Assembly (NCBI GenBank): GCA_025363435.1
Contig: JANYDY010000102.1
Span: forward strand, 1 to 43,487
DNA length: 43,487 nucleotides
Direction: 5' to 3'
Source of the DNA: Betaproteobacteria bacterium
GTDB taxonomy: Bacteria > Pseudomonadota > Gammaproteobacteria > Burkholderiales > SG8-41
Part shown: piece after piece, positions 14,714-17,048 of the stretch
How the letters are laid out: each line of letters begins with the position of its first letter
Position numbering within the stretch: the stretch's first letter is position 1
The notes under the pieces: generated by a model
The model's input: only the letters and a program-made list of their open reading frames with translations
The model's database searches: none
Told to the model about the DNA's origin: nothing
Position numbers and translations under genes: made by a program

Positions 14714-15142
14714 ATGCTGCGCGAGATACTCGCGGTACGTCAGGACAAACCCGGCCTCAGGCGGCGCTGGTTTCAGGATGAATTTTTCGATCTCTACACC
14801 TGGCAAAAACGCGACGGCGCGCTGGTAAATTTTCAGCTTTGCTACGACGTGCGCGGTCGCGAGCGCGCGCTCAGCTGGTCGCACGCGCAAGGTTTCTCGC
14901 ACAACAAAATCGACAGCGGCGACGAATATGCCGGACAGCCAATGACGCCGCTGTTGAAAGGTGACGCCCGCTTCCCGCACCGTTTTGTGCGCACGCGGTT
15001 TATCCGCCACGCCACATCGCTCGATGCGACAACCAGCACTTTTATCCTCGATAAAATGCGCGAGTTCGGCCGTCACTCTGCACGCGGTGAAATCGTGCTG
15101 CCGCGACGCGTGCGAACGCCGGCGCCAGACACCCCTATTTGA
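14714..15142 (+). CDS. Conserved-looking protein of unknown function
   Basis: 142 residues, start seven bases after the ptsI stop, so probably cotranscribed with the PTS genes. I do not recognise a family. It is soluble, with no signal peptide or membrane helix, rich in Arg, His and aromatic residues ([16 protein letters not shown] near residue 21, then [20 protein letters not shown] and [11 protein letters not shown]), and a basic C-terminus. The aromatic and acidic spacing and normal codon use argue for a real gene. Its TGA stop overlaps the -35 box of the metX promoter, so PTS transcripts may read into the metX leader. Confidence 0.65.
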
Positions 15143-15167
15143 CAAGCAAGGCCTGCGCGGGTAACGT
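15139..15167 (+). promoter_or_regulatory. metX sigma-70 promoter
   Basis: TTGACA (15139-15144), 17-base spacer, TAACGT (15162-15167), predicting a start near 15174, a few bases before the aptamer. It closely parallels the metH promoter. Confidence 0.65.
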
Positions 15168-15180
15168 AACCCTCGTTGTT

Positions 15181-15234
15181 GTGCGCCGATTTGATTCAGC
15201 TTGCGGGCGCCTAATAAATCCGGCTAAAGAGAGG
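15181..15234 (+). promoter_or_regulatory. SAM-II-type riboswitch aptamer, metX leader
   Basis: P1 GCGCC (15183-15187) pairs with GGCGC (15206-15210). Between them are GATTT (15188-15192) and GCTTGCG (15199-15205). After P1 come TAATAAAT (15212-15219) and GGCTAAA (15222-15228). AGCT (15198-15201) can pair with GGCT (15222-15225) as a pseudoknot. Element order, spacing and the whole about 50-base size match the compact SAM-II aptamer, known mostly from alphaproteobacterial metA/metX/metC leaders. Here it sits before metX. Not verified by a covariance model. Confidence 0.85.
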
Positions 15235-15249
15235 CGAGGTAAAACTAAG

Positions 15250-15285
15250 CCCGGTTTAGCGCAAGCAAACCGGGTTTTTTTATTT
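15250..15285 (+). terminator. Intrinsic terminator of the metX riboswitch, abutting the start codon
   Basis: CCCGGTTT (15250-15257) pairs perfectly with AAACCGGG (15267-15274). The loop can close further as GC-GCAA-GC, and seven T follow (15275-15281), ending four bases before the metX ATG. TTTAGC at 15255-15260 is complementary to GCTAAA of the aptamer (15223-15228), giving a plausible antiterminator. Confidence 0.87.
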
Positions 15286-16434
15286 ATGGATCACGCAGAA
15301 AACAAACATTCGGTCGGCGCGGTAACCCCGCAGAAAGCGCGCTTCGATGCACCGCTTTCATTAAGCAGCGGCGCAACGCTCGCCGGCTACGAACTCGCCT
15401 ACGAAACCTACGGCACGCTCAATGCGAACCGCTCGAACGCGGTGCTGGTCTGCCACGCGCTGAACGCCTCGCACCATGTCGCCGGTTTTTACGCCAACGA
15501 CCCCGCCAACCTCGGCTGGTGGGACAACATGATCGGTCCGGGAAAACCGCTCGACACCAACCGTTTTTTTGTTATCGGCGTCAACAATCTCGGCGGCTGC
15601 TTCGGCTCGACCGGGCCTTTGTCACCGAACCCGGCGACCGGCAAACCGTGGGGCGCTGATTTTCCGGTGGTCACGGTTGAAGACTGGGTCAACACGCAGG
15701 CCCTGCTCGCCGATCAACTCGGCGTCAAGCGTTTCGCCGCGGTGATGGGCGGCAGCCTCGGCGCGATGCAGGCGATGTCGTGGACCATCCAGTATCCGGA
15801 ACGCGTCGGCCACGCGCTGGTGATCGCCGGGGCGCCCAATCTGTCGGCGCAGAATATCGCCTTCAACGAAGTCGCGCGCCAGGCCATCATCACCGATCCG
15901 GATTTTCACGGCGGCCATTACTACGAGCACAACACGCGGCCGACGCGCGGCCTGCGGGTAGCGCGCATGGTCGGCCACATTACCTATCTGTCGGACGACG
16001 AGATGGCGAACAAGTTCGGGCGGCTGCTCAGGAACGGCAAGCTCAATTATTCCTTCGACGTCGAGTTCGAAATCGAGTCGTACCTGCGCCATCAGGGCAA
16101 CAAGTTTTCCGACTATTTCGACGCCAACACCTATCTGCGCATCACCAAAGTGCTCGATTACTTCGACCCCGCGGCGGCGCACGGCGGCAACCTGAGCCTG
16201 GCGCTGGAGCCGGCGACCGCGGCCTTTCTGGTCGTCTCCTTCACCACCGACTGGCGCTTCTCGCCCGAGCGTTCGCGCGAAATCGTCAAAGCCCTGCTCG
16301 ACAACAGAAGTGCCGTCAGCTACGCCGAAATCGATGCGCCGCACGGCCACGACGCCTTTCTGCTCGACGATGCGCGTTACCACCGTCTCGTCGGCGCTTA
16401 CTTCGAGCGCATCGCGCAGGAGCTCGCGTCATGA
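15286..16434 (+). CDS. metX: Homoserine O-acyltransferase MetX
   Basis: 382 residues from ATG 15286; upstream in-frame sequence is riboswitch and terminator. An alpha/beta-hydrolase enzyme that activates homoserine with acetyl- or succinyl-CoA at the entry of methionine synthesis. Conserved features are [17 protein letters not shown], the nucleophile elbow [14 protein letters not shown] with the catalytic Ser, the Asp in FTTDWRFSP and the His in [11 protein letters not shown]. The acyl donor cannot be decided from these motifs alone; pairing with metW is often seen with the succinyl type. It overlaps metW by four bases. Expression should fall when SAM is abundant, if the leader works as read here. 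Confidence 0.96.
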
Positions 16435-17048
16435 CCGGCAGCGGCGTGCAACGTTCCGATTTTGCGGCGATCGCCAACTGGATCAAACCCGACGCGCGCG
16501 TGCTCGACCTCGGCTGCGCCGACGGTTCGCTGCTGCGTTACCTGGCCGAACAACGCGGCAGCATCGGTTACGGCGTCGAAATCGATGATGACCGCGTGCT
16601 GGCGTGCATAAAGAACAACGTCAACGTGATTCAGGGTGATATCGAACGCCGGCTTGGCGAATTCGCCGACGCCTCATTCGATTACGTAGTGCTGTCGCAA
16701 ACGCTGCAGGCGGTGCGCAGCAGCGAGCGCGTGGTGCGCGAAATGCTGCGCGTCGGCCGCGAAGGGATCGTCACCTTTCCGAATTTCGGTTACTGGCGCA
16801 ACCGCCTGCACGTACTGGGTGGCCATATGCCGGTGTCGGACAACATTCCCTTCGAATGGTACGACACGCCGAACATCCACCTCTGCACGACCACCGACTT
16901 CGAGGATTTCTGCAGCGCCTACGGCGTACACATACTCGAACGCATCGTCATGGACAACGACGGCGGCACCGTGCGCGTGCTGCCGAATTTGCTCGGCAGC
17001 CTGGCCATCTACCGCTTCGAGCGCGCGCCGTCGCTCATGGAAACCTGA
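16431..17048 (+). CDS. metW: MetW, methionine-biosynthesis partner protein (methyltransferase fold)
   Basis: 205 residues, ATG overlapping the metX stop as ATGA. It has a class I methyltransferase fold with motif [16 protein letters not shown], acidic [11 protein letters not shown] and [11 protein letters not shown], and the MetW signature [13 protein letters not shown]-like ([16 protein letters not shown]), followed by [18 protein letters not shown]. MetW is needed together with MetX for homoserine acylation in several proteobacteria and forms a complex with it; its own methyltransferase activity is unproven. It is the last gene of the riboswitch-controlled transcript. The 66 bases after the stop hold no recognisable terminator. 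Confidence 0.95.

Follow-up and report, generated by a model that had tools for sequence, protein, structure and literature searches.

In the 43,487-nucleotide stretch of DNA from a betaproteobacterium that was analysed here (hereafter the window), the methionine gene metX is preceded by a short leader, which raises the question of how the binding of S-adenosylmethionine (SAM) by an RNA might be converted into a decision about transcription of the genes behind it. On the plus strand, a SAM-II aptamer comes first, then an intrinsic terminator, and directly downstream metX and metW (Table 1), a methionine-gene context as expected of the SAM-II class. The initial annotation had proposed that six bases of the aptamer, GCTAAA, serve both in sensing SAM and in switching the terminator. 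On the evidence set out below, we consider it likely that the leader is a SAM-II riboswitch, which turns metXW off by intrinsic termination.

Table 1. Features of the metX leader and the genes that follow it (positions within the window).
Feature	Position	Strand	Basis or score
-35-like hexamer TTGACA, 6/6	15139..15144	+	read from sequence
-10-like hexamer TAACGT, 3/6; spacer of 17 bases	15162..15167	+	putative
SAM-II (RF00521 SAM_alpha) covariance-model match	15173..15249	+	28.3 bits
P1 5' strand, GCGCC	15183..15187	+	
L1 and 5' strand of the P2 pseudoknot; conserved GATTTG 15188-15193 and TTGC 15201-15204	15188..15205	+	
P1 3' strand, GGCGC	15206..15210	+	
P2 pseudoknot 3' strand (GCUAAAGAGA); GCUAAA 15223-15228, proposed 5' arm of the antiterminator	15223..15232	+	
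Predicted antiterminator, inner part	15231..15252	+	G15231:C15252; GGC 15233-15235:GCC 15249-15251; GGU 15238-15240:ACU 15244-15246
UUUAGC, antiterminator 3' arm, within terminator left arm and loop	15255..15260	+	
Intrinsic terminator: stem 15250-15257/15267-15274, U-tract 15275-15281	15250..15281	+	
metX, ATG 15286, 382 aa, regulated gene	15286..16434	+	NF047916 MetX_succinyl 671 bits; PRK00175 MetX 571 bits
metW; 4-base overlap with the metX stop	16431..17048	+	TIGR02081 254 bits

The promoter-like pair TTGACA-17-TAACGT would place the start of transcription a few bases 5' of P1, and the same layout is found in six other members of the genus (L069, L070, L175, L178, L181, and L189). The 142-aa open reading frame that adjoins the leader upstream (14714-15142) has no NCBIfam match. 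For MetX itself, the best NCBIfam model describes a homoserine O-succinyltransferase, not an O-acetyltransferase.

The identity of the aptamer is supported by its place and orientation before metXW and, more broadly, by its relatives. A SAM-II-like aptamer had been annotated at 15181-15234 from the letters alone, and the covariance search (cmscan) gives a match to RF00521 there that is full length (model positions 1-79; E 7.9e-5) but falls short of the Rfam gathering score of 36; at the gathering threshold, the Rfam scan of the window returned zero matches. Across the whole genome (2.97 Mb), the leader is the sole credible SAM-II match (E 2.5e-4; the runner-up has an E of 1.55). RF00521 matches with E <= 0.1 occur in 71 of the 74 genomes of the window's family, 43 of which carry a copy above the gathering cut-off, and in 217 of 399 genomes sampled from the order. 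P1 is kept through sequence change: 250 of 258 distinct aptamers pair at five or six of the six positions, with variants such as CGCGCC/GGCGCG and CGTGTT/GACACG. For the P2 pseudoknot, both conserved strands (UUGC and GCUAAA) are present in the window leader, the pair -9:+4 covaries among the aptamers (z = 6.0), and the pair -8:+3 is paired in 93% of them; a global test of cognate P2 energies was not significant (z = -1.0). Matches to Trp_leader, trpB, anti-hemB, CRISPR-DR66, and TCV_H4 in the same stretch are weak, lie below their cut-offs, and were rejected; the terminator hairpin apparently accounts for most of them.

Behind the aptamer, the terminator stem CCCGGTTT/AAACCGGG consists of eight perfect pairs followed by T7, and inside its loop a further GC/GC helix closes a GCAA loop, leaving one bulged A. 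This is the perfect terminator of the initial annotation; a pattern scan of the plus strand did not list it, as the scanner allows loops of at most 8 bases and this loop has 9. Between GCTAAA (15223-15228) and TTTAGC (15255-15260) all six bases are complementary, as had been claimed to the base. Of 1012 terminator-like hairpins collected from 20 contig stretches of this genome and the window, about 353 kb in all, two carry TTTAGC in their left arm and loop, the window's included. Within the window sequence itself, the duplex between the aptamer 3' strand and the left arm of the terminator does not surpass shuffled sequences in energy (p = 0.45). The case for the six-base complement therefore rests on the relatives.

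Folding of growing transcripts indicates when the two complementary segments could meet. GCUAAA:UUUAGC with its inner pairs is the minimum-energy fold of transcripts that end between 15260 (-24.0 kcal/mol) and about 15270 (-25.6 kcal/mol), and it is compatible with an intact P1. With the transcript end at 15272 the terminator draws level; two bases further on, at 15274, its lead is 5.5 kcal/mol, and in the transcript ending at 15281 it stands at -35.6 against -28.1 kcal/mol, i.e., about 7.5 kcal/mol in its favour. GCUAAA:UUUAGC is predicted to be mutually exclusive with both the pseudoknot and the terminator. When the P2 strands were blocked, as a proxy for a SAM-bound pseudoknot that the folding program cannot represent, the antiterminator was excluded and the terminator formed. 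Since the finished terminator is far more stable, a switch at this position must be under kinetic control; at equilibrium the terminator would always form, so that the leader may be a kinetic switch or may carry a constitutive terminator.

The sequence of events that we propose is as follows. Without SAM, P1 would form and the 3' strand of the pseudoknot would be left free. Once the RNA extends past 15258-15271, GCUAAA could pair with UUUAGC, reinforced by the inner GGC:GCC pairs, and the left arm of the terminator would stay occupied until the polymerase has passed the U-tract. When SAM is present, GCUAAA would be kept in the pseudoknot, the left arm would remain free, and the terminator would form and stop transcription before metX. 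The choice would be kinetic and made within about 12 bases of polymerase travel, perhaps aided by pausing. We infer that this leader binds SAM, that it is switched off with SAM, and that the choice is a kinetic one.

Which strand does the switching was examined across relatives, from which 294 SAM-II leaders were extracted, 217 of them with a terminator. After removal of near-duplicates, 98-103 non-redundant leaders entered the coupling tests; these remain related to one another, and the coupling statistics therefore overstate independence. Six-of-six pairing to GCUAAA (G-U allowed) is found in 21 of 98 terminators compared to 2.7 expected from dinucleotide shuffles, an 8-fold excess, and under stricter removal of duplicates in 7 of 43 compared to 1.4. 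It is frequent in other orders of the class (11 of 16 terminators), and the family sample has no clear excess (1 of 17, 0.3 expected). A leader's own terminator left arm and loop pair better with its 3' pseudoknot strand than do swapped ones (z = -4.9, 0/2000 permutations, n = 103), also when permutation is confined to taxonomic groups (z = -4.55, 1/2000, n = 98). As a control, the terminator right arm shows no coupling to the 3' strand (z = -0.7 and +0.7). In transcripts that end before the right arm, predicted contacts between the 3' strand and the left arm amount to 5.67 nt compared to 3.16 in shuffles (p = 5e-11), and those of GCUAAA to 2.41 compared to 1.12 nt (p = 1.6e-7); over all leaders, the terminator contacts made by the remainder of the aptamer in such partial transcripts do not exceed those in shuffles (3.82 compared to 4.37). 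The 5' pseudoknot strand is coupled more weakly (z = -2.2 for the left arm, -2.7 for the right arm). The coupling thus indicates that, where a SAM-II leader acts through a terminator, the antiterminator is in general formed by the 3' pseudoknot strand. These sequence comparisons support the 3' pseudoknot strand, GCUAAA included, as the putative switching strand of such leaders.

The exact six-base register is another matter. Conservation of the GCTAAA/TTTAGC complementarity had been named as one of the points on which the proposal could fail; it recurs across the class and drifts within the window's own genus. Of the roughly 15 metX leaders in the genus, five have TTTAGC (the window, L068, L183, L187, and L189), and other members have TATAGC, TAAAGC, ACTAGC or CTGAC instead. 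The predicted pairing of GCUAAA with the left arm also differs among genus members: the window and L189 show it strongly, L068 and L183 in part, and L187 and L188 not at all. Exact complementarity is thus enriched rather than universal, being frequent in distant orders. Near-constant across the genus are CCCGG and the loop sequence CGCAAGC; the loop sequence is a complement of the 5' pseudoknot strand. In a separate observation, one genus member (L186, genome G801) carries a second SAM-II copy, whose terminator has CCGCTTTGGC in its left arm and for which a strong antiterminator is predicted.

This drift bears on the best-surviving rival explanation, according to which the leader is a SAM-II element with a terminator, and the antiterminator uses another register or another strand, to which GCUAAA/UUUAGC would be a minor contributor. 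The candidates are AAAUCCGGCU (15216-15225) with AGCCCGGUUU (15248-15257), or the 5' strand GCUUGCG (15199-15205) with the loop CGCAAGC (15260-15266); we regard this explanation as unlikely. The first would be in line with the predicted nascent folds of L068 and L183, in which the AAAUCCGGCU stretch pairs with AGCCCGGUUU instead of GCUAAA with UUUAGC. For the second speak the retention of CGCAAGC, but not of UUUAGC, in nearly all genus members and the coupling, though weaker, of the 5' pseudoknot strand to the terminator. However, with the window transcript ending at 15266 the alternatives reach -17.1 and -20.9 kcal/mol, compared to -25.6 kcal/mol for GCUAAA:UUUAGC, contacts of the remaining aptamer with the terminator are not enriched over all leaders, and GCAAGC is also found in other terminator-like hairpins of the genome. 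On folding energy, GCUUGCG:CGCAAGC was ruled out as the main antiterminator of the window, and it is retained as a rival. From the initial proposal, the SAM-II identity, the termination platform, and the switching role of a 3' strand that contains GCUAAA are supported, the last of these by the nascent folds and by the coupling in relatives; the exact register is not kept in every leader.

More doubtful is the possibility that termination is constitutive or serves only to fix a low basal expression, with SAM having little influence on it and the aptamer acting mainly via RNA stability or translation. The equilibrium stability of the terminator, far above that of the antiterminator, would suit such an arrangement, and for the Sinorhizobium meliloti metA leader a terminator downstream of SAM-II was not predicted to respond to SAM (PMC9373788). 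Against this stand the left-arm coupling of the 3' strand among the relatives and the terminators that lie directly behind the aptamer throughout the family and the order. Finally, it is very improbable that GCUAAA/UUUAGC is a chance 6-mer in an element that is not a functional SAM-II riboswitch: a score below the gathering threshold and a single-sequence duplex energy at chance level would fit this, but SAM-II matches in 71/74 family genomes, covariation in P1 and P2, and the rarity of TTTAGC in other terminator-like hairpins of the genome do not, and the conservation of the element largely refutes it.

The metX ATG follows the U-tract by 4 bases (15275-15286) and lacks a Shine-Dalgarno sequence. 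In the family, an ATG lies within 12 bases of the U-tract in 68 of 101 terminator leaders, and a canonical Shine-Dalgarno sequence precedes that ATG in none of the 68; some of these ATGs, e.g., before metZ, are probably not true starts. In the family, the 3' arm of the terminator itself (CCGGG or CGGGG) supplies the only G-rich stretch within reach of the metX start. We tentatively suggest, as an idea that is unlikely to hold, that one hairpin serves two steps, with the strand exchange deciding termination and also ribosome access on read-through RNA.

Other leaders combine the aptamer with different platforms. TTTAGC lies within 90 bases in 34 of 77 leaders in which no terminator was detected; these are of the Burkholderia and Paraburkholderia type and close relatives of one another. 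In 24 of the 34, three further pairs adjoin TTTAGC and a GGCGG Shine-Dalgarno-like sequence lies downstream, which provides a lead: in these leaders, freed UUUAGCCGCC could mask the ribosome-binding site. In leaders L087-L147 (Burkholderia, Paraburkholderia, and others), the aptamer has an extra stem, and a ribosome-site-like GGCGG lies behind a 9-bp complement, GCGGCTAAA:TTTAGCCGC; here a strand exchange of the same kind may possibly act on translation. Apparent tandem SAM-II copies were seen in L019, L028, L046, L250, L257, L267, L299, and L310, the first copy with a terminator and the second, often a variant, near the start codon, comparable to published bi-mechanism tandems.

Among known systems, the SAM-II class (RF00521) shares with the window leader the aptamer core of P1 and P2 pseudoknot, a methionine gene downstream, a promoter just 5' of P1, and a terminator behind P2; the leader differs in scoring below the Rfam cut-off. 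The initial annotation had treated a terminator-type SAM-II switch as exceptional. In alpha- and beta-Proteobacteria the reverse is reported: terminators are the commonest SAM-II platform there (Barrick and Breaker, 2007, PMC2258182) and many SAM-II representatives carry them (Corbino, 2005, PMC1273637; see also PMC9373788). The metX SAM-II element from the Sargasso Sea, known from a crystal structure, is of the same aptamer class, but occludes a ribosome-binding site within the aptamer (PMC10907184), whereas in the window the aptamer and the start codon are separated by a terminator. The S. meliloti metZ SAM-II leader likewise has a predicted SAM-dependent terminator, and a short RNA whose length matches the terminated leader accumulates in rich medium (Scheuer, 2022, PMC9373788). 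It differs in being alphaproteobacterial and in controlling metZ, and the available part of that report holds no mutational dissection of the strand exchange that we could find.

Two further elements presumably belong here. In Leyn (2014, PMC4239095), a terminator-antiterminator element named "metXZ" is predicted upstream of beta-proteobacterial metX or metZ; it is called new and not equated with SAM-II, SAM_alpha being reported only in Rhizobiales and Rhodobacterales. The metXZ element shares with the window the genes (metXW or metZ), the bacterial group, a pseudoknot formed by two pairs of conserved regions, and the terminator that follows. Measured against the textual description of its six conserved regions, the window agrees on position, host group, pseudoknot, and terminator, and we infer from this description that metXZ is probably the SAM-II leader. 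There, the GC-rich regions 3 and 4 were guessed to be the antiterminator, whereas our test points to the 3' pseudoknot strand. The second element is the Burkholderia sRNA Bp2_Cand287 (RF02424, Bp2_287), reported upstream of the methionine genes metX and metZ (PMC3521395). Its model matches the minus strand at 15155-15280, covering leader and terminator end to end, with 32.6 bits at a gathering score of 70. This was the best low-threshold Rfam match, but was rejected as the identity of the element because it lies on the opposite strand; in 20 relatives scanned with cmscan, SAM-II and SAH riboswitches came up and no RF02424 above its cut-off. Bp2_287 looks like the SAM-II leader deposited in reverse orientation. 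Together, these comparisons suggest that the beta-proteobacterial SAM-II leader, the metXZ element, and the Bp2_287 sRNA are three names for one thing.

In the open-licence literature, as far as its text was available, we found no assignment of the antiterminator strand for terminator-type SAM-II riboswitches. The present comparison provides a testable one, in which the bases of the SAM pseudoknot's 3' strand would double as an arm of the antiterminator, in a register that shifts from lineage to lineage. Systems of this kind are already known; the strand assignment and its test are the addition.
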